The notes under the pieces: model-generated
The model's database searches: none
The model's input: only the letters and a program-made list of their open reading frames with translations
What the model was told of the DNA's origin: nothing
Shown: one piece after another, positions 277 to 17,992 of the stretch
Layout: the number at the start of each line of letters is the position of its first letter
How positions within the stretch are numbered: the stretch's first letter is position 1
Virus record (IMG/VR): IMGVR_UViG_3300017762_000006
Location: 1-55,450 of that record
Origin: a virus
Strand: one strand, 5' to 3'
Length of the DNA: 55,450 nucleotides
Translations under genes and position numbers: made by a program

Positions 277-505
277 ACTTCTTTCCGATCGATACCAGTA
301 TGAAGAAATAGTAGGTTTTAGGAAGACCTATGATTTACCCACATATACTGGTGATATAGATAGTTTATATTATTTTGTGAATCATAGTGCTAAAAAGAAT
401 CGATTTAGAAAACGATTTGATGAAGCTATGGATCTAGCTAAAAAGATTTTAGAGAGTTATGAAAATGAAAAAACTAATTTACCAGGTGTATACCGGCAAA
501 CGTAA
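257..505 (+). CDS. Small conserved-looking protein, unknown function
   Basis: This encodes 82 residues with no recognised domain. The ATG at 257 is preferred over an upstream GTG at 248 because GGAG at 245-248 is correctly spaced in front of it. The protein is charged, with a central aromatic patch (DSLYYFVNHSAKKN) and a lysine-rich helical C-terminus (about residues 45-75). It overlaps the upstream HAD gene and the downstream glycosyltransferase, so it is co-translated with the sugar cassette. A role in that cassette is not shown. Confidence 0.6.
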   Translation: MNISLAELLSDRYQYEEIVGFRKTYDLPTYTGDIDSLYYFVNHSAKKNRFRKRFDEAMDLAKKILESYENEKTNLPGVYRQT

Positions 506-1253
506 AAAATTATATGATTTTTGTACTGCTTCAGTAAAAAAATATGCTGATAGAATTGGCGCTGATTATATTGTGCAGCGGCAACCTATACTCATGATTA
601 AGCCAGATGTTTTTCAAACAAATAGATCAAATGAATCATATATGAAATATGGCGGCTTTCTTCCCATTTATGAGAAAGAAAACGCATTTGCATATTTTAA
701 ATCGTATGACAAAATAGCATTAATTGATGGCGATATTTTTATTAGGGATTCAGCGCCTGATATTTTTAATGAAATTAATAATGACTATGATTTTGCCGGC
801 GTTGTTGAAAGAGAAATGCCTCTTAATGATCGTTATGTTTCTAAAATAACTAATTATTCTCGTATGCAGTATGGTAATATTAAAAACGTAGATTGGAAAT
901 GGAATAACAAAGGTGCTGAATTCTACAATATGGGAATGATGCTCATGAATAAATCTATGGGTAAATATCTAAACGGAGAAACACCTGCACAGTTTTTAAG
1001 ACGACCACGATTTAAGCCGTTCATCGATGGAATCGGCGCATGGAAATGGTCAACAGACCAGACTCTTCTTAATACATGGATTAAAGAAGAAAAAATGCGT
1101 ACCAAGAATTTAGATTGGAAATGGAACGGACTGTATAATGCTGTTCCTAACGATAAACTCCATGAAGCGCACTTTATTCACTTCTTTCATAAAACTGTTC
1201 TGCCTATGGAAGGCGAGAACATTGAAGAACTAGCAAAATTAGTAGGGATATAG
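465..1253 (+). CDS. Putative glycosyltransferase (DxD type)
   Basis: The 262-residue protein has the layout of a GT-A nucleotide-sugar transferase. After about 80 residues it has a hydrophobic strand ending in acidic residues (KIALIDGDIFIR, DGD at about 88-90), the usual metal and nucleotide-sugar binding DxD motif. The N-terminus (KKLIYQVYTGKR) resembles those of the genes at 1854 and 3526, so the three look like paralogues. An in-frame ATG at 459 also exists; 465 has the better GAGAG spacing. It is the first of the sugar cassette and sits 1 base before the methyltransferase start. Substrate and acceptor cannot be inferred from sequence. Confidence 0.7.
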   Translation: MKKLIYQVYTGKRKKLYDFCTASVKKYADRIGADYIVQRQPILMIKPDVFQTNRSNESYMKYGGFLPIYEKENAFAYFKSYDKIALIDGDIFIRDSAPDIFNEINNDYDFAGVVEREMPLNDRYVSKITNYSRMQYGNIKNVDWKWNNKGAEFYNMGMMLMNKSMGKYLNGETPAQFLRRPRFKPFIDGIGAWKWSTDQTLLNTWIKEEKMRTKNLDWKWNGLYNAVPNDKLHEAHFIHFFHKTVLPMEGENIEELAKLVGI

Positions 1254-1254
1254 T

Positions 1255-1860
1255 ATGAGATTTTTAGAAATTGCTGCTAGTCGTAAACGTGATTTAAATT
1301 GGGATGCAGTTAGAGACGTTGCAGATCCTGCTAATGGTGTAGAAAAATATGATCTAACAGATCTGCCTATGAGAGGTATTTCAGATAATACGTATAATGG
1401 CGTTTATAGCGAACACTTTATTGAACATCTCACAAAAGAAGAAGGCATAAATTACTTCAAAGAAATGTTTCGTATAATGAAACCAGGTGGAATTATTAGA
1501 TCTATCTGGCCACCTATGGAATTTGTAGAATGGCTAAGACAAGAAAATAGTTTAGAAAATCATTCTTGGGTTCAACACTATTATAACTTCTATGTTGTCA
1601 AACATAACTTTGCACCTAAAAATACACGGAGCATGCGCATACAAGATCAGTGCGCAGAAGGTATTATGTGGCAAAATGGTGAACATAAACACATTTGGCG
1701 TAAGACCGAACTTATTGAATCTTTAAAAGAACTAGGATACATTAACGTTAAGGAATGTCTATATCAAAAAAGTGGATTAGCTCCATTTAATAATATCGAC
1801 ACGCCTGGTACAGTTAGAGCATTTCATTCTGCAGTAGTAGAAGCTTCAAAACCATGGTAA
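1255..1860 (+). CDS. SAM-dependent methyltransferase, class I-like
   Basis: This 201-residue protein begins MRFLEIAASRKRDLNWD. Residues 48-60 (NGVYSEHFIEHLT) and then FKEMFRIMKPGGIIR form the typical post-motif pattern of class I methyltransferases of the Methyltransf_11 type, in which an H-x-x-E-H element is followed by an amphipathic helix and L-K/R-P-G-G. The classical glycine-rich SAM loop at the N-terminus is poorly conserved. It is translationally embedded between two glycosyltransferase genes, overlapping the next start by 7 bases. It may methylate a sugar or the glycan end; this is inferred from context only. Confidence 0.7.
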   Translation: MRFLEIAASRKRDLNWDAVRDVADPANGVEKYDLTDLPMRGISDNTYNGVYSEHFIEHLTKEEGINYFKEMFRIMKPGGIIRSIWPPMEFVEWLRQENSLENHSWVQHYYNFYVVKHNFAPKNTRSMRIQDQCAEGIMWQNGEHKHIWRKTELIESLKELGYINVKECLYQKSGLAPFNNIDTPGTVRAFHSAVVEASKPW

Positions 1861-2525
1861 ACATTATTCTACAGCATTTTGACGGTGAGTTAAGAGAGCT
1901 CGATAAACTGTCTATGGCTAATATTCAGGAATATGCTAAGCTAGTAAATGCAGATTATAAACTAATCACAGGTAAACCTTTTCGAAAGCATCTTACATCA
2001 CCTTGTCAAAAAGTTCATATGCTTCATGAAGAGTTTGATGACTATGATGATGTGCTAATGCTTGACATTGATATGTTTGCCCCGAAGAATATGACTACTA
2101 ATATATTTGAAGAATCTGGTATTGGCCTATATGAAGAGGTGCAGCATAGGCTACACCATAGACTGGCTGCTTCATATCCCATGTACGCTAGTCTTTTATA
2201 TCCTTATTGGGGTGGAGCTATTTACAAATTTTCAAAGGATATGAGAGTTAAGCTTAGATCTGAATTAGGCGGCAATGAAGCTTGGATGCATCCATATAAT
2301 AAACTTTATAATTATGAAGATGAAGGCATCATTCACACTTTAGCCGTTAAGTCTGGCTTTACTCCAAAGAAACCTTATCTTCACAGAAGATGGTGTCAGT
2401 GCAGTTTCCTTCCTAGCCCTCAAACCGCAGGGTTTATTCATGTAAGAACTAAGATTACGCCCCAGGGGCCAAAACGCGAGAAAATAGAAAACTATCAGGC
2501 ACTGGTTGACAAAGGTATATTATGA
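1854..2525 (+). CDS. Putative glycosyltransferase (DxD type)
   Basis: The 223-residue protein shares the N-terminal plan of the genes at 465 and 3526: an opening beta strand, an Asn- or Tyr-rich helix, then KLVNADYKLI. It carries DDVLMLDIDMF with the DxD motif at about residues 71-73. A second conserved-looking block, PYWGGAIYKF, lies near residue 118. The start overlaps the preceding methyltransferase and the stop overlaps the glf start by 4 bases, so translation is coupled. It is probably a GT-A enzyme adding one sugar of the phage-specified glycan; specificity is unknown. Confidence 0.7.
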   Translation: MVNIILQHFDGELRELDKLSMANIQEYAKLVNADYKLITGKPFRKHLTSPCQKVHMLHEEFDDYDDVLMLDIDMFAPKNMTTNIFEESGIGLYEEVQHRLHHRLAASYPMYASLLYPYWGGAIYKFSKDMRVKLRSELGGNEAWMHPYNKLYNYEDEGIIHTLAVKSGFTPKKPYLHRRWCQCSFLPSPQTAGFIHVRTKITPQGPKREKIENYQALVDKGIL

Positions 2526-3529
2526 AAATATTAGTGGTAGGTGCTGGATTATCTGGAGTTACTATAGCTAGAGAACTGGCTGATAGCGGCCACAGTGTTC
2601 ACGTAATTGACCGCCGTGATCACGTTGCCGGCAACGCCTATGATTACAATAACGAACACGGTATAAGAGTTCATAAGTACGGTCCACACCTATTTCATAC
2701 TAATAATAAAACAGTTTTTGAATGGCTGTCTAGATTTACCGATTGGGTTGAATATAGACACAAAGTAAAGGCCCAATTAGCAGACGGCCAATACGTAACG
2801 TTGCCTGTTAATAAAGAAACAAAAGATATAGTAGGTGAAGAAAACGTCTTAGATGTATTCTTCAGACCTTATACTAAAAAGATGTGGGGAGTAGAGTTAG
2901 ATAAACTTAATCCGGATATTATTAATCGTGTACCTATAAGAGATGACGACAACGAATTATACTTTCCAGATGATAAAATACAGTATATGCCTCGGCTTGG
3001 CTATACAGAAATGGTTAAGAATATTCTTTATCACCATAATATCACAGTTGATCTTAAAGTGCATTTTAATAAATCATTAGAGAAAGAATATGATCATGTG
3101 TTTAACTCTATGCCCATAGATGAGTATTATGAATTTAAATATGGAAAGCTACCTTATCGTTCTATTAAATTTGAGACAATAAGTCTACCTATACCAAAAG
3201 CATTACCAACTGCAGTTGTCAATTTTACTCATCACGGACCTAAGACCAGAGTTACAGAATGGAAAAATATACCATGTCATGGTGACAATAAGTATATGAC
3301 AACGCTTACGTTTGAAGAGCCATGTGATTATCTTGAAAATAATTTAGAAAGATATTATCCAGTAAAAGATGCTGATGGTAAAAATAAAAAGATTTACGAA
3401 AAATATAAAAAACTTCAATCTAAGAATATGACATTTATAGGTCGCTGTGGATTATATGCATACTTAGATATGCATCAAGCTATAAATTCTTCATTGGCTA
3501 TAGCAAAACGATTTAAGGATAAAAAATGA
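2522..3529 (+). CDS. glf: UDP-galactopyranose mutase
   Basis: Glf is an FAD enzyme that interconverts UDP-galactopyranose and UDP-galactofuranose. The 335-residue protein starts with the dinucleotide-binding loop VGAGLSG (residues 6-12) and a following acidic strand end VHVIDRR. It then has AGNAYDY, the substrate-region block KYGPHLFHTNN, and PYTKKMWG near residue 120. The C-terminus (FIGRCGLYAYLDMHQAINSS) matches the family GR..Y.Y.DM...I end. It is somewhat shorter than typical bacterial Glf (about 360-380 residues). The GalE-like gene two positions downstream would supply its substrate. This is one of the safest calls in the cassette. Confidence 0.93.
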   Translation: MKILVVGAGLSGVTIARELADSGHSVHVIDRRDHVAGNAYDYNNEHGIRVHKYGPHLFHTNNKTVFEWLSRFTDWVEYRHKVKAQLADGQYVTLPVNKETKDIVGEENVLDVFFRPYTKKMWGVELDKLNPDIINRVPIRDDDNELYFPDDKIQYMPRLGYTEMVKNILYHHNITVDLKVHFNKSLEKEYDHVFNSMPIDEYYEFKYGKLPYRSIKFETISLPIPKALPTAVVNFTHHGPKTRVTEWKNIPCHGDNKYMTTLTFEEPCDYLENNLERYYPVKDADGKNKKIYEKYKKLQSKNMTFIGRCGLYAYLDMHQAINSSLAIAKRFKDKK

Positions 3530-4344
3530 AAAACATGATTTACCAATATTGGCAAGGACCTTTAAAACCTGGGGTATTAGCTAGTACTAAACTAATGAAA
3601 GCATATGCAGATAAAATTGGAGCTGCATATAAGTTTGACCATAATGTTACTATCGCCAGTAAAGTAGTAAATGTACCAATATATTATGAACCTGCTAATC
3701 CATTAGTGAGCGCTGAATTTGATCAGTATGATAATGTGGCATTAATAGATATTGATGTGTTTCCTGTAGAAGGATTATCAGATAATTTGTTTATGCTTAA
3801 TGGCGAAGACGCGGGTATTTGCACTGAACCTAAGCAACCTTTCTTTAGAACAATTTATAATTCTGGTGGAATTACAAGCGCAGTAGATAAAGTATGGGCT
3901 AGAACCTGCGAAGACACTTGGGGCATAAAATATTCTTATGATAAAGAAGGTAGACCAGAAGTATTTAATACTGGCGTAGTAGTAATATCAAAAGCTGGAT
4001 TGCAAAAGATGAAAAAGGATTGGCCGTCATTTCAAGACTACGTAGATAAAATGGGTCAATTTCCTAGGTTCTATAGGCTCTTTCAAGATTACTTTTCAGC
4101 CTTTATTCATCTTCCTAATTTTAAGTTAATGCGTATGCCTAACGAATGGAATTGTTATATGCACAAAGTAGGGTCTCATCCTGTGGCCAAAATTGGTGAT
4201 AACAGGCCAGATAATGCAAAGCTAGTACATATTATGTTCCGCACAGCCGATGACTGGCCAGAAGAAGCTCTATGGCAGATTACTAATAGTCCTGTTAATG
4301 AATGGAATTTGCCAGTAAATAAAAACTGGCCTAATGAAGGATAA
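3526..4344 (+). CDS. Putative glycosyltransferase (DxD type)
   Basis: This is the third member of the local paralogous family, 272 residues, with IYQYWQGPLKPG at the N-terminus and NVALIDIDVFP carrying the DxD at residues 75-77. Later segments FNTGVVVISKAG and FQDYFSAFIH resemble the N-T-G and aromatic acceptor-side blocks seen in GT-A enzymes. The start overlaps the glf stop by 4 bases, making it a natural candidate to use the UDP-Galf made by Glf, but nothing in the sequence proves that donor. Confidence 0.7.
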   Translation: MKNMIYQYWQGPLKPGVLASTKLMKAYADKIGAAYKFDHNVTIASKVVNVPIYYEPANPLVSAEFDQYDNVALIDIDVFPVEGLSDNLFMLNGEDAGICTEPKQPFFRTIYNSGGITSAVDKVWARTCEDTWGIKYSYDKEGRPEVFNTGVVVISKAGLQKMKKDWPSFQDYVDKMGQFPRFYRLFQDYFSAFIHLPNFKLMRMPNEWNCYMHKVGSHPVAKIGDNRPDNAKLVHIMFRTADDWPEEALWQITNSPVNEWNLPVNKNWPNEG

Positions 4345-4347
4345 ACT

Positions 4348-5205
4348 ATGAGATTATTTGTGACAGGCGCCACGGGTTATATAGGTGCTCATTTTGTAAA
4401 AACCGCTGCAGAGGCTGGACATACAATTTCAGCTGCAGATTTTAATACTAAACAGAATGATATTTTTAAGTACTGTCACAAATTTTATCCTTGGGATATT
4501 CGAAATAAACTGCTGAATAATAATGATACATATGATAAAGTAATTCATATTGCTGCGCAAACAAAAGTTCCTAATTCAGTAAAAGATCCTTATAACTATT
4601 ATATGACTAATGTCATCGGAACTAAGAATGTAATCGATGCTGCAGCATGCGATCATTTTGTTTATTGTTCAACTGGCAGTGCTTTCGAACCACAAAGTAA
4701 TCCATATGCAGGATCAAAACATGCAGGTGAATTAATAGCAAAACAATTTAAACCCAAATGCAGTATTGTGAGATTCTATAATGTAAGTGGCAATGATGGT
4801 ATGGCAAAATATGATGATGAATATAGCCATCTCATTAGAAGAGCAGCTGCTGTAGTTAATGGTAAATTTGATAAGCTGTATATTCATGGAACTGACTTTG
4901 AAACAAGAGACGGTACGTGTGTCAGAAACTATACGCATGTCAAAGATATAGTCGATTCCTTAATGAGAATAACCGAGAACGAACCTACAAATGAAATCGA
5001 TTGTTTAGGTTCTCCTGAAGGGCATTCAGTAAAAGAAGTTGTAGATGCAATGGCCAATGTTTCGAGAGTTAATTTTGAAGTAGTTGAAGGGCCTCGCAGA
5101 GCCGGTGATATTGCCATATCAACTGTTCCTACCAAATCTAAATATTTTAAACAAAATAAATCATTAGAAGATATGTGCATTGACGCTATAAAATACGAGG
5201 TATAA
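4348..5205 (+). CDS. galE: NAD-dependent epimerase, UDP-glucose 4-epimerase-like
   Basis: This is an extended short-chain dehydrogenase of 285 residues. The NAD loop GATGYIG is at residues 7-13, a serine/threonine pair is at about 108-109, and the catalytic YxxxK reads YAGSK (Tyr120, Lys124). RDGTCVRNYTHV at residues 187-198 corresponds closely to the RDGTCVRDYIHV signature of GalE. It is shorter than E. coli GalE (338 residues), so related epimerases are possible, but the signature favours UDP-Glc/UDP-Gal interconversion. It is preceded by AAGGAT at 4338-4343. With Glf it gives a complete route to UDP-galactofuranose. Confidence 0.85.
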   Translation: MRLFVTGATGYIGAHFVKTAAEAGHTISAADFNTKQNDIFKYCHKFYPWDIRNKLLNNNDTYDKVIHIAAQTKVPNSVKDPYNYYMTNVIGTKNVIDAAACDHFVYCSTGSAFEPQSNPYAGSKHAGELIAKQFKPKCSIVRFYNVSGNDGMAKYDDEYSHLIRRAAAVVNGKFDKLYIHGTDFETRDGTCVRNYTHVKDIVDSLMRITENEPTNEIDCLGSPEGHSVKEVVDAMANVSRVNFEVVEGPRRAGDIAISTVPTKSKYFKQNKSLEDMCIDAIKYEV

Positions 5206-5206
5206 A

Positions 5207-5788
5207 ATGATAAATTCTGAACTAGGGCACGTAAAAACTCTAAAGCAGTTTCATAAGGAAATTGTAAGACAGCAGACAGAAGCACATGGCGAACATTATT
5301 GTGATCACCATGAGGTTATTAAAGAAAGAATGAAAGAGTGCGATTCTTATATGGAGCTAGGTACACACCAAGGTGGTACGGCTTCTGCGGCCCTACTTAC
5401 TAAACCAAAGAAAATCGTATTAGTCGATAACGATATGTCAAGATATAGAAAATTCTTACAGCCTATTGCAGAAGAGTTTTGCTTGAAACATAAAATCATT
5501 TTAAAAGAAATTGAACAAGATTCTACACATCTAAAATCTTCTGGTGGCCCTGTGGATTTTCTTTTAATTGATAGCTATCATCATCCTCAACACATGTCAA
5601 GAGAACTTATGACACATCAAGTTAATATTAAAAAATATATTTTGGCACACGACACTAGTATTATTAATGGTCGTCAGAATAGTTCTTTGTATGAAACTTT
5701 AGTTAGGTTTTGTGATCAGTATCCGTTTAAAGTCATTGAACGTAATGAAGTCGCAGAAGGATATACTTTACTAGAAAGAGTATCATGA
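5207..5788 (+). CDS. SAM-dependent methyltransferase (CmcI / Methyltransf_24-like)
   Basis: The 193-residue protein contains a clear SAM-binding motif I, SYMELGTHQGGTAS at about residues 47-60, followed by KKIVLVDND (motif II acidic residue). It then has VDFLLIDSYHHP, the strand 4 block with Asp and His residues found in the cephalosporin hydroxylase-like methyltransferases. The end FKVIERNEVAEGYTLLER resembles the family's last beta strands. It follows the epimerase after one base and overlaps the next gene by 4 bases. It is likely a sugar O-methyltransferase by context; the acceptor is unknown. Confidence 0.75.
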   Translation: MINSELGHVKTLKQFHKEIVRQQTEAHGEHYCDHHEVIKERMKECDSYMELGTHQGGTASAALLTKPKKIVLVDNDMSRYRKFLQPIAEEFCLKHKIILKEIEQDSTHLKSSGGPVDFLLIDSYHHPQHMSRELMTHQVNIKKYILAHDTSIINGRQNSSLYETLVRFCDQYPFKVIERNEVAEGYTLLERVS

Positions 5789-6477
5789 AAGCCTATGCTA
5801 TAGTAATTAGAGACCACGATATATCTGAGCACGGGTATAAAAACCTGGTGACTAGTTCTTTTAGGGTCAAGAACGATTTTGAAATAAATCGATTCAATGC
5901 TATAGTACCTGAAAATACTGATGTACTTCTTTCAAAATTTAAGTTACAATGGAATTATCCATGGACCGGAGAAGTTACTGATTTTGCGTCAGGCTTAATT
6001 AAACGCGCGTATGTAACGGCAAGACCTAAGGCTAGGGTTGCAGCCGCGCTGAGCCACTATTCACTGTGGCTTGAAGCCGCCACAAGCAACGAAACAATAT
6101 TAATATTAGAACACGATGCCTGTTTTACTTATAAACTAAATATTAATCCGAGTGAATGTAAAGGAAATATTATTGGAATTAATAATCCACTTGGCTGTAC
6201 ACGTAAGGCTAGAGTGTTTTATCAGAAAGTAATTGACAGCCAAAACATGTTTCAATTAGCTCCTAAGGTAGATAATGAAAATGTTCCACAGGGGTTAGCT
6301 GGAAATAGTGCATATATAATTAAACCAAGCGGCGCAATTAGAATGCTTAAGCTTGTAGAGGAATTTGGCCTTTGGCCAAACGATGCCATAATGTGCAGAC
6401 AATTATTTCCTGACTTATATGTCACCCGTAAATTCTATACTACTATTCAAAATTTAAAGAGTACCACGACTCAATGA
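5785..6477 (+). CDS. Glycosyltransferase family 25-like protein
   Basis: This 230-residue protein has the plan of LPS-type GT25 transferases: an N-terminal strand, then ALSHYSLWLEA (residues 88-98), then ILILEHDACF where GT25 enzymes have an acidic metal-binding ILEDDv block. Here the motif is E-H-D (Glu109, His110, Asp111). A late block GNSAYIIKPSGA corresponds to the family G..aYliS..gA segment. The gene at 6474 has the same blocks, so the pair arose by duplication or joint recruitment. Starts and stops overlap at both ends. Confidence 0.7.
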   Translation: MKAYAIVIRDHDISEHGYKNLVTSSFRVKNDFEINRFNAIVPENTDVLLSKFKLQWNYPWTGEVTDFASGLIKRAYVTARPKARVAAALSHYSLWLEAATSNETILILEHDACFTYKLNINPSECKGNIIGINNPLGCTRKARVFYQKVIDSQNMFQLAPKVDNENVPQGLAGNSAYIIKPSGAIRMLKLVEEFGLWPNDAIMCRQLFPDLYVTRKFYTTIQNLKSTTTQ

Positions 6478-7115
6478 AAAATTATGTTATTACTATGTCC
6501 CAAATGCCAAAGTCTGTTGAGGCGGCGGCACGGTGTATTACATCTGGAAAAAGATATGGCTTTGAAATACAAAATTGGGAAGCTACAACTCCTAATGAAC
6601 TTCTATATGGATTTCTTTTTGATGCAGGTATTGAACCAGAAGGATTTAAAGAAAAATATTCGCGTTTAGATAACTGCATGGCTGCTTTTCACTCGCATTG
6701 GTCGTTATGGAAGCATTGTACAGAAATAAAAGAAGAAGTTACTATATTTGAGCATGATGCAGTATTGGTTGATTATATCCCTAATATGCCTTTTAATGGG
6801 TGCATAAATTTTGGAAAGCCTTCTTATGGCAGATTTAATGTTCCACCTCTCCTCGGTAAAAATAAATTAGTATCTAAAAGATATTTCCCTGGTGCCCACG
6901 CCTACCGTGTGAGCCCGTGGGGTGCACAGCGACTTATTGATGAATCTAAGCGAAAAGCAAAGCCAACAGATGTGTTTTTACATCTTGACGTATTTCCGTG
7001 GCTAGAAGAGTATTATCCTTGGCCTGTAGAAGCAAGGGATACATTTACAACTATACAAAAAACAGAGGGATGCCTAGCAAAGCATAATTATAATGGTAGC
7101 TACAAAATCGTCTAA
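6474..7115 (+). CDS. Glycosyltransferase family 25-like protein (second copy)
   Basis: The 213-residue protein carries AAFHSHWSLWKH (about residues 70-81) and then VTIFEHDAVL with Glu93, His94 and Asp95, the same E-H-D variant of the GT25 metal motif as its upstream neighbour. The later block FPGAHAYRVSPWGAQRLID again matches the G..aY..s..gA..L pattern. Overall identity to the neighbour appears low outside these blocks. It overlaps the next gene by 23 bases. It is probably a glycan-chain transferase; donor unknown. Confidence 0.7.
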   Translation: MKNYVITMSQMPKSVEAAARCITSGKRYGFEIQNWEATTPNELLYGFLFDAGIEPEGFKEKYSRLDNCMAAFHSHWSLWKHCTEIKEEVTIFEHDAVLVDYIPNMPFNGCINFGKPSYGRFNVPPLLGKNKLVSKRYFPGAHAYRVSPWGAQRLIDESKRKAKPTDVFLHLDVFPWLEEYYPWPVEARDTFTTIQKTEGCLAKHNYNGSYKIV

Positions 7116-7743
7116 TCTTTTTATTACAGGGTGTGATCACATCACTGAATGGCAATTGCCATGGTTTGTAAATAATTTTAAAATGCATAATCCAAATGCT
7201 GAGTTAATGATATATGATTTCGGCATGAAAAATAATCCATATCCGGAATTAAGTGTGCATCTTAATAGTAATGATCGAGGGTGGTTTAAAAAACCATCTG
7301 CTATGATGAAAGCAGCTTTAGCAGCTAACAAGGTTTGTTGGTTGGATACTGACTGCCACGTTCAAGAAAACATTGAAAATATATTTAACTTTACTGAACC
7401 AGAAAAGCTATGCATGGTAGAAGATATTCCGTGGTCTAAAAGGCGTGGTGAAACCTGGCATAACTCCGGAGTAATAGCTTTTCAAGGTACGCCATCAATT
7501 TTAGGCAAATGGGCAACAGAAGTAGCATATAAGCCTATAGTAGGAGATCAGGAAGTACTTCACACTATAGTTGGACAAGCTCTTAATAGAATGAGATATA
7601 TAAAAGACCTACCTAGAGCGTTTAATGTATTAAGATTAGATGTTTTAGATGGCACTACTCCAGACAAAATAAAAGTTATGCACTGGACAGGCGCTAAGGG
7701 TAATGAAGAAATTAAAAAAATAATTAGAGAGACAATTAGATGA
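7093..7743 (+). CDS. Putative glycosyltransferase (DTD motif)
   Basis: This is a 216-residue protein starting inside the end of the preceding gene. Residues 82-88 read CWLDTDC, a DxD at Asp85/Asp87 at the end of a hydrophobic strand, followed by ENIENIFNF. A conserved-looking block ETWHNSGVIAFQ resembles the N-x-G segments of GT8- and GT77-like enzymes, and the C-terminal IKVMHWTGAKG resembles their H-x-x-G-x-K-P end. The Shine-Dalgarno is weak, so translation is probably coupled to the upstream gene. Substrate is unknown. Confidence 0.65.
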   Translation: MVATKSSNLFITGCDHITEWQLPWFVNNFKMHNPNAELMIYDFGMKNNPYPELSVHLNSNDRGWFKKPSAMMKAALAANKVCWLDTDCHVQENIENIFNFTEPEKLCMVEDIPWSKRRGETWHNSGVIAFQGTPSILGKWATEVAYKPIVGDQEVLHTIVGQALNRMRYIKDLPRAFNVLRLDVLDGTTPDKIKVMHWTGAKGNEEIKKIIRETIR

Positions 7744-8336
7744 CTAGAGTTGCTCATATTATTGGTAACGGTGATAATGCTCCTATGTACAAACCAGCCA
7801 AGGGCCTTAAAATTACGTGCAATCTTCCTCCATTTACGGTGGAAAACTGCTATACAACTTGCATAGTAGATTTTAAAATGTGCATGGCTATCACTGACGG
7901 TTCTGTTACCGTACCTGGCGATTGGGTGCTTGGGTTTAGACCTAAGATTTGGTATGACAAAAATAAAGATAATTTTCGTATGAGGTTTGGGCATCACATA
8001 AAAGAGTTTTATACCGTATTACCAAAATATGCAGGTAATTACACTAATCTTAATTGCGGGCATTTCGCAGCGCATTACACGGCAAACAGACTACAGGCAA
8101 AAGAGATACATCTATATGGGTTCGATTCGTTATTTGATATGAATCTAAGAAGCTGTACGGACTTTTATCTTGGATCAGACCGCGGCACTACAAATAACGT
8201 GCGGCTCAATGATAACTGGAGGCCTATTTGGCAAAAAATCTTTGAAGAATTTAAGGACACGCAATTTGTACTTCACCACAATCATGATAAACTTAAATTT
8301 CCTAAAGGCGAAAATGTTGAGATTGTAACAAAATAA
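7740..8336 (+). CDS. Unknown protein of the sugar cassette, possible transferase
   Basis: The 198-residue protein begins VAHIIGNGDNAP, a glycine-rich turn after a first strand. It later has NCGHFAAHYTANRLQAKEIHLYGFDS. This arrangement (GNG at the N-terminus, then an S/C-G-x-x-A helix and KEI-x-L-x-G-x-D) resembles the nucleotide-binding folds of GT42 sialyltransferases and DUF115 proteins. That is a fold-level resemblance only. It is last in the cassette, overlaps the gene before it by 4 bases, and stops 4 bases before the first early-type promoter. Confidence covers the gene being real; the function is open. Confidence 0.6.
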   Translation: MTRVAHIIGNGDNAPMYKPAKGLKITCNLPPFTVENCYTTCIVDFKMCMAITDGSVTVPGDWVLGFRPKIWYDKNKDNFRMRFGHHIKEFYTVLPKYAGNYTNLNCGHFAAHYTANRLQAKEIHLYGFDSLFDMNLRSCTDFYLGSDRGTTNNVRLNDNWRPIWQKIFEEFKDTQFVLHHNHDKLKFPKGENVEIVTK

Positions 8337-10865: not shown

Positions 10866-10942
10866 GGACACGTAGCTCAGCTGGATAGAGCAAGTGCCTT
10901 CTAAGCACTAGGTCGAGGGTTCGAATCCTTCCGTGTTCGCCA
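10866..10942 (+). tRNA. tRNA-Arg (anticodon TCT)
   Basis: This 77-nt cloverleaf is readable by hand. The acceptor stem GGACACG pairs with CGTGTTC (one G-T). The D stem is GCTC/GAGC, and the anticodon stem AGTGC/GCACT has loop CTTCTAA. The T stem is GAGGG/CCTTC with loop TTCGAAT. The 3' CCA is encoded at 10940-10942. Anticodon TCT reads AGA (and AGG). AGA is the dominant arginine codon of the late structural genes in this window, so the tRNA likely supports late translation. Confidence 0.95.
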
Positions 10943-14256: not shown

Positions 14257-14514
14257 ATGAAAACTGCAACTACTCAATCTGATCGTCTTGCTCTCATCAA
14301 AGAAATCGCTGAGCGTAAGAAAAAAATGTCTAAGATCCGTAAACAGTCTGCATCAGTTATCTCTCGCGCCAAGCCTGTTTCTCGTAAGAAAAAAGATCTT
14401 GACATTCCTAAAGAGTCTAACATGTATCACTGGACTGATGCATCTAAATACGCCAAAGAATACTATGGCGAAACAATGTTTGAAACAACTCGTTACGACA
14501 ACGATTGGGATTGA
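14257..14514 (+). CDS. Small very basic protein, unknown function
   Basis: The 85-residue protein from MKTATTQSDRLAL is chosen over an upstream ATG at 14230, which lies within the -10 box. The first 55 residues are strongly basic (RKKKMSKIRKQ, SRKKKDLD) and likely bind nucleic acid or are disordered; the last 30 are acidic and aromatic (WTDASKYAKEYYGETMF). The stop codon forms part of the following hairpin terminator. Confidence 0.65.
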   Translation: MKTATTQSDRLALIKEIAERKKKMSKIRKQSASVISRAKPVSRKKKDLDIPKESNMYHWTDASKYAKEYYGETMFETTRYDNDWD

Positions 14515-14529
14515 GTCTTAGACTCTTTT
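14513..14529 (+). terminator. Hairpin with short U-run, probable terminator
   Basis: GAGTC (14513-14517), loop TTA, GACTC (14521-14525), then TTTT. The short stem and 4-T run make it weak alone, but it sits exactly at the stop codon of the preceding gene and before the structured non-coding segment. Confidence 0.55.
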
Positions 14530-14702
14530 CCTCATACGTCCGTGCAGAGGGCAGGCCACCTGAAAACACAATCTCGCGAGAATAATTCGCCTGTGAAATA
14601 TCAGTGTCGTGAAAACGTGGAGATATTAGTTTCAATCAAACTAGAGCGGCAACGTCAATAAGGCCGTGCGGAAGTGATTGGATATACTAGGGGCGTATGA
14701 GG
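14530..14702 (+). ncRNA. Candidate structured RNA closed by a 12-bp long-range stem
   Basis: These 173 bases have no credible ORF. CCTCATACGTCC (14530-14541) pairs over 12 positions (one G-T) with 14691-14702. Inside, five successive hairpins can form: CAGG/CCTG (14552-14562); GCGA/TCGC (14576-14590), enclosed by CACA/TGTG; ATATC/GATAT (14598-14626) with an inner CGT-GAAA-ACG tetraloop hairpin; TAGTTT/AAACTA (14627-14643); and CGGC/GCCG (14647-14666). The stem ends immediately before the AAAGGAG ribosome site of the next gene, so it may be a cis-regulatory leader rather than a free RNA. It matches no RNA family known to me. The fold was drawn by hand. Confidence 0.5.
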
Positions 14703-14715
14703 AAAGGAGTTTATT

Positions 14716-14922
14716 ATGAGAACTGTACACTATGTTGGTATGAGTGAGGCTCGTTATGAGGCAGCCCGCAGGGTCTTCGGTGGTCCTGCCTACTATCACA
14801 AACATATGGACGCTAGAGTCTATAGCGAAGTTGGTGATAGTGATGTTGTTATAGTAGGTGATCCTAGAATGCACAAGTATGTATGGGATGCATCTGCAGT
14901 TGATAGGAGGTACACAGATTGA
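14716..14922 (+). CDS. Small protein downstream of the structured RNA, unknown
   Basis: The 68-residue protein has AAAGGAG directly after the closing stem of the candidate RNA. It begins MRTVHYVGMSEARYEAARRVFG and has a strand-like DVVIVGDPRM near residue 44; it resembles no family known to me. If the upstream structure is regulatory, this gene and the SWIM-type gene coupled to it would be the regulated ones. It contains TAGGAGG at its 3' end, serving the next start. Confidence 0.65.
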   Translation: MRTVHYVGMSEARYEAARRVFGGPAYYHKHMDARVYSEVGDSDVVIVGDPRMHKYVWDASAVDRRYTD

Positions 14923-17068: not shown

Positions 17069-17992
17069 ATGAGTTTTGCAGCACTAAAACGTAATCGTAC
17101 TGATCTTAATAGCTTGATTAATCAGGCTCAAGAAAACACAGGTCAACAATCTCAACGTCAATCAGAAGATCCACGCTTCTGGACACCAACACGAGATAAG
17201 GCTGGCAATGGTTACGCTGTAATCCGTTTCCTACCAGGAGACGCAGAAGCCCCAACACCATGGGTTCGGTACTGGGATCACTTCTTCAAAGGCCCAACAG
17301 GTCAATGGTATGTAGAGAAGTCTCTTACATCTATTGGTCAACCAGATCCATTAGCTGAAAGTAACAGTAAGCTGTGGAATGAAGATGGCTCTGACGAAGC
17401 CAAACGTACTGTACGTGAGCGCAAACGTAACTTACGATATATTGCAAACGTACTAGTTATTTCAGATCCTGCAAATCCAGAGAACGAAGGTCAAGTTAAA
17501 CTTTATCGCTTCGGCAAGAAAATCTTTGACAAGATTATGGATAGCATGCAGCCTCAGTTTCCTGATGAAGCTCCGGTTAATCCATTTGATATGTGGGAAG
17601 GTGCAGACTTTACGCTTAAGATTCGTAAGGTCGAAGGTTATCCAAACTATGATGCTTCTTCGTTTAAGTCAGCTTCGGAATTACTTGCCGGAGACGATGA
17701 GAAAAAAGAAGTCATTTATGAAAAACAACATGAAATGACTGAATGGACTGATCCAAAAAGCTATAAGACATATGACGAACTTAAGTCACGTCTTGCTCTA
17801 GTCCTTGGAGAGTCTGTACCACGAACTGTCCGCGAGCAGGTATCATTAGATACTACAGAGTCTTATAGTTCTCCGGTAACAGCCGCTCCTGAGCCTGCAA
17901 TGCCATCAGCACCTGCAGCTACGGCAGAAAGTTCATCTATGGATGATGATGACACCATGTCGTATTTTGCTAAACTAGCAGCAGAAGACTAA
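17069..17992 (+). CDS. 32: Single-stranded DNA-binding protein gp32
   Basis: The 307-residue protein matches T4 gp32 along its core: MSFAALKRNRTDLNSL at the N-terminus (the cooperative LAST-like basic region), FWTPTRDKAGNGYAVIRFLPG, NILV-like strands and DPANPENEGQVKLYRFGKKIFDKI. It ends in a C-terminal acidic tail (MDDDDTMSYFAKLAAED). The zinc ligands of T4 gp32 (His and three Cys) are absent: the corresponding region reads WYVEKSLTSIGQPDPLAE. It organises ssDNA during replication and recombination. It is preceded by AAGGAAA. Confidence 0.93.
   Translation: MSFAALKRNRTDLNSLINQAQENTGQQSQRQSEDPRFWTPTRDKAGNGYAVIRFLPGDAEAPTPWVRYWDHFFKGPTGQWYVEKSLTSIGQPDPLAESNSKLWNEDGSDEAKRTVRERKRNLRYIANVLVISDPANPENEGQVKLYRFGKKIFDKIMDSMQPQFPDEAPVNPFDMWEGADFTLKIRKVEGYPNYDASSFKSASELLAGDDEKKEVIYEKQHEMTEWTDPKSYKTYDELKSRLALVLGESVPRTVREQVSLDTTESYSSPVTAAPEPAMPSAPAATAESSSMDDDDTMSYFAKLAAED

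Follow-up and report, generated by a model that had tools for sequence, protein, structure and literature searches.

Phage T4 encodes two small non-coding RNAs next to its tRNA genes, rnaC and rnaD (species 1 and 2 RNA). Neither has a known role, and a T4 review states that no small trans-acting T4 RNA has been functionally characterised (PMC3014915). The phage RNAs ROOL and GOLLD, likewise of no known function, are also often found near tRNA islands. They have intermolecular kissing loops backed by covariation, are known to form cages and are large, GOLLD often exceeding 800 nt (PMC12286853). In marine T4-like phages, comparative genomics has revealed the structured RNAs manA and wcaG, which occupy 5' UTRs upstream of metabolic genes and are found chiefly in cyanophages (PMC2864571). 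At the retroviral dimer initiation hairpin, as outlined in PMC4588261, a GC-rich self-complementary loop centre starts kissing.

The element described here shares features with each of these. Like rnaC and rnaD it belongs to T4-like phages, and at several loci, the window not among them, it lies directly against a tRNA gene (Pro, Thr, Asn or Trp). Its fold, however, differs from the one predicted for rnaC and rnaD, and its covariance model, run with filters off, gave no match at their T4 positions, so homology to them was rejected. At about 130-210 nt it is much smaller than ROOL and GOLLD, does not belong to either family by Rfam and has a kissing contact that is so far predicted from its sequence. 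It does not match manA or wcaG in Rfam either, and psbA was found in none of ten carrier records, most of them fragments, on which ground a cyanophage identity was rejected. The likeness to the retroviral hairpin is one of principle and not of kinship; the common centre in the element is 4 nt long and lies in a small RNA of a DNA phage.

The window, which is the whole stretch of DNA analysed, is an IMG/VR record of 55,450 bases and looks like a T4-like phage: the top GenBank relatives of its ssDNA-binding protein gene (17069-17992), at 49-51% identity, are one Kyanoviridae phage and cyanophages. The window also has a series of sugar-related ORFs at 459-8336, glycosyltransferase-like members included, with a UDP-galactopyranose mutase-like protein at 2522-3529 and an epimerase-like protein at 4348-5205; these were judged by eye from the translations. 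The element lies on the plus strand, as do all features given below, between a small ORF that ends at 14514 and a 68 aa ORF of the MRTVHYVG.. family (14716-14922). The segment had been described from the sequence as ORF-free; only short minus-strand ORFs overlap it and there is no conserved coding across it, the homologues varying by indels and swapped modules. ARAGORN found a single tRNA in the window, tRNA-Arg at 10866-10942, and called the element neither a tRNA nor a tmRNA.

The element was searched against Rfam 15 (4227 families, among them GOLLD, ROOL, manA, wcaG, HEARO, riboswitches and ribozymes). Over the whole window only a tRNA matched at the gathering threshold, the region 14480-14760 gave no match up to E = 10 with ribozyme families included, and the element gave none in five homologous loci. 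The sequence-only reading had likewise recognised no family. No earlier description was found in the open literature searched, and the RNA is previously undescribed. A likeness of GGAGATACTAG to the P7 region of group I introns was dropped; P3 pairs differently and the Rfam search was empty.

The fold is closed by a long stem. Two complementary 12-base arms had been proposed, and CCTCATACGTCC (14530-14541) and GGGGCGTATGAGG (14690-14702) do pair, with one G-U and, at their inner end, a little freedom of register. The 173 nt that they span have a folding energy of -54.6 kcal/mol (z = -3.13; 2 of 200 shuffles were equally good). The longer segment 14519-14714 folds at -71.5 kcal/mol with z = -5.41, a value that none of 200 shuffles reached; therefore, the closing stem (P0/P1) has about 23 bp and not 12. 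Its 5' strand is 14519-14541 and its 3' strand is 14691-14713. The stem includes the 3' half of the terminator-like hairpin upstream and also the Shine-Dalgarno sequence (SD) AAAGGAG of the 14716 gene (14703-14709), which lies opposite GACTCTTTT (14521-14529). The 3' arm had been thought to stop one base before this SD, which is instead inside the stem.

The refined structure was evaluated on an alignment of 46 distinct homologues, in which 98.1% of the pair cells are kept and 24 of the 51 pairs show compensatory double changes. There are 151 double-change cells, compared with 42.5 +- 5.3 in shuffled alignments and at most 30 with slid partners. A tree-preserving null was written for this analysis, and its maximum score over 200 simulations was 48.5. 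The best pairs of the stem have scores of 73.8, 71.2 and 60.3, and E<0.05 is reached by four stem pairs that lie next to each other. Two pairs outside the helices also beat this null, and both are within the P2 loop. There is little variation in the inner helices, in part as a result of gathering the sequences by an exact match to the core. The model scores 164.5 bits on the plus strand and 26.2 bits on the minus strand, so the plus strand is the sense strand of the RNA. A chance fold is ruled out by the shuffle controls together with the covariation. Excess stability, covariation and the empty Rfam search strongly support a new structured RNA.

Homologues were entered through relatives of the neighbouring ORFs, which led to copies of the element at 74-99% identity. 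The exact core AGCGGCAANGTCAATAAGGCCGTGC is present in 86 IMG/VR stretches, and the family comprises about 90 viral contigs in all. The exact core is absent from about 85,000 prokaryote genomes, and BLAST of the element against GenBank phages gave no match and no cultured carrier. Looser core patterns added at least two further true copies that differ at loop positions only, most of the matches listed being unrelated and due to chance. The covariance model added one more (L353), in which GCCGC replaces GCCGU and an otherwise constant G-U pair becomes G-C. With minus-strand echoes at the same position ignored, the model found the element exactly once in every one of 16 long records, those of 182.7, 177.5 and 275.4 kb among them, which rules out a multicopy mobile repeat. 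Not every relative has the element: among 16 fragments picked by their gp32 gene alone, all of them partial, two had a match to it, one of which was weak.

The closing stem encloses three domains, and the five inner hairpins counted earlier from the sequence were roughly right. The P2 hairpin (GUG..CAC, 14542-14569) is supported by covariation in helix 2 and by an inner G-C pair that changes to A-U. It is followed by a variable module at 14571-14624 with an AUCUC..GAGAU outer helix, in which five of five pairs show double changes, and with optional inner hairpins, one of them with a GAAA loop. This module is shorter or missing in some homologues. The P3/P4 domain (14626-14690) contains the invariant core GCGGCANNGUCAAUAAGGCCGUGC, with a P4 stem formed by 14646-14650 and 14663-14667 and a P4 loop at 14651-14662. 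Independent support for P3 comes from the diverged L341, where TTTGACA/TGTCGGA replaces TTCAATC/GATTGGA. No antisense target for the P4 loop was found within the window except the element itself.

The third domain also varies in kind. When the P2 module was used as a query, RNAs in L041, L203, L200 and L339 proved to share the closing stem and P2 of the element and to have other third domains; within the window there is no further copy of a related P2 module. P4 is naturally lost in L344 and replaced in L345 and L332. The scaffold thus seems to be fixed, with a third domain that can be exchanged. Small RNAs that share the closing stem and P2 but differ in the third domain were also noted at about 4815-4905 of L041 and in L054, L203 and L339, and in L339 a strong terminator-like hairpin comes next.

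In all 14 distinct alleles of the P2 loop, a run of 4 nt or more is self-complementary. The palindrome is at the exact centre of the loop in 13 of these alleles, which are related and so represent fewer than 14 independent changes; 3.9 were expected when loop halves were exchanged, and none of 200,000 shuffles did as well. When the register was moved by 1-4 nt, only 0-2 alleles were palindromic. The two adjacent central bases may be GC, CG, AT or TA and the four central words are GGCC, CCGG, GAUC and GUAC, the palindrome extending to 6-8 nt in some alleles. Self-complementarity is therefore kept by compensatory change, across 13 of 14 alleles and four words. Because adjacent bases cannot pair within one molecule, this constraint fits the pairing of two identical molecules and points to a kissing-loop homodimer, with GGCC at 14554-14557 as the proposed contact in the window. 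The CAGG at 14552 had been suggested to act as a switch by pairing with either of two CCTG sites. It sits in the P2 loop and overlaps GGCC; nothing was found in support of a switch, and what is kept in the loop centre is its self-complementary kind and not its sequence.

It had been left undecided whether the structure is a free RNA or a leader of the next gene. An SD sits in the 3' arm at 23 of 54 distinct loci and is missing from the arm at the other 31, and the downstream genes belong to several unrelated families. In L233 a TTGCAC-17-TATAAT precedes the element and a GC-rich terminator follows it, as read by eye; a scan confirmed the terminator, while the promoter fell under the scan threshold. 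L244 has a similar layout by eye, with TATAAA instead. A promoter-like site was also read by eye directly behind the element in L199, L206 and L268. A riboswitch or gene-specific leader would be placed constantly before one gene or pathway, whereas the element is followed by unrelated genes, tRNAs and terminators. The SD-less arms, varied followers, stand-alone-like units and single copies combined indicate a free-standing RNA gene, and a free RNA fits these contexts better than a leader does.

Other RNAs were observed in related contigs. A second unnamed structured RNA (TAGTACGAGC..AACCCGTAAAATCCTGGT..GACTACTA) is present in L227, L045 (near 4850-4985), L063 and L037. It has its own long closing stem, the strands of which co-vary, and it is often beside the element or replaces it. 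The third RNA is also conserved and structured, and it ends in GGGGAGRG..ACTGCAG..CTCTCCCACGAAAACT. Its 18 distinct copies (L055, L041, L045, L200, L248, L271 and others) are often immediately 5' of the element, and in those loci that were scanned Rfam gave no hit to it. ARAGORN also found permuted tmRNA genes of the two-piece type in L195 (9467-9844), L248 (6549-6943) and L034 (3549-4011), and the permuted tmRNA tags in related phage contigs include ANDNVAPSGYALAA.

The loci whose arm contains an SD, the window among them, have a further feature. The terminator hairpin noted earlier is present as a motif at 14513-14525 (H0, GAGTCTTAGACTC then TTTT), and its 3' strand GACTC also belongs to the closing stem, so that H0 and the stem compete. 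An H0-type hairpin occurs in 19 of these 23 loci and in none of the other 31 (Fisher P 5e-11, which overstates the independence of related loci). In the predicted fold the unpaired probability of the SD bases 14703-14709 does not exceed 0.004 as long as the 5' arm is there, and is 0.25-0.87 once the arm is removed. Of the refuting outcomes named beforehand none occurred, except for the state of L043 and L044: in these the outer stem and SD are kept 5' of the 14716 homologue, the RNA body is missing and the junction is CTGCAG. T4 genes e, soc, 49 and I-TevI offer a comparable precedent with hidden ribosome sites (PMC3014915). All of this would suit a cis-acting leader whose stem hides the SD of the next gene until H0, or a ligand or protein on the inner domains, frees it. 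As a general account this is unlikely: it does not fit the 31 loci whose arm lacks an SD, or the unrelated genes, tRNAs and terminators that follow, and the 14716 gene family has a separate SD of its own in L193, L234, L250 and L252. A leader is still a viable reading at the 23 loci where the stem contains the SD. There the SD and the accompanying H0 count against a free RNA alone and suggest gene control; the H0 pattern, the hidden SD and L043/L044 make such control possible in the window as a second use.

L043 and L044 also bear on mobility. Their junction could come either from an empty site or from a deletion between TGCA repeats. Insertion or splicing by a mobile RNA element or a ribozyme could account for the absence flanked by a 4-bp TGCA repeat, the differing genomic sites and the swapping of inner domains on one scaffold. 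Such an element would not be expected to leave a single copy per contig, and the arm sequences vary among loci, unlike transposon ends. Since no Rfam ribozyme family matches and the absence may equally be a deletion between short repeats, this explanation is very improbable.

It is only slightly less improbable that the structure is a processing or stabilising hairpin and nothing else, a cut site of the RNase III type in polycistronic transcripts that releases a functionless RNA. RNase III cuts such long stems, and a long perfect stem between genes, directly 5' of tRNAs, would suit this role; the invariant P4 core and the palindromic P2 loop would be left unexplained.

The reading that we favor, with reasonable but not high confidence, is that the element is a free small non-coding RNA gene of uncultivated marine T4-like phages and that use as a leader is secondary. 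The RNA is probably transcribed alone or inside transcripts of tRNAs and small genes, and may be released by cutting at the long closing stem. It would then fold into the closing stem, the P2 hairpin, the variable hairpin and the P3/P4 domain with its invariant core. Since the P2 loop is self-complementary, two copies probably kiss through their P2 loops, and the invariant core is a likely contact for a partner. In the window and a minority of loci, the 3' arm would double as the ribosome site of the next gene and keep it closed while the stem is formed. A more tentative extension, which we consider possible but hold with less than even confidence, is a new class of small phage RNAs that acts as a homodimer or as a larger RNA-only kissing-loop assembly and has a modular scaffold, the third domain of which is swapped from phage to phage.

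In T4-like phages this family provides a compact and widely kept RNA whose fold is defined, whose core is invariant and whose proposed dimer contact can be tested. Variants in which the core domain has been lost or replaced naturally (L344, L345 and L332) make the parts of the RNA directly testable.
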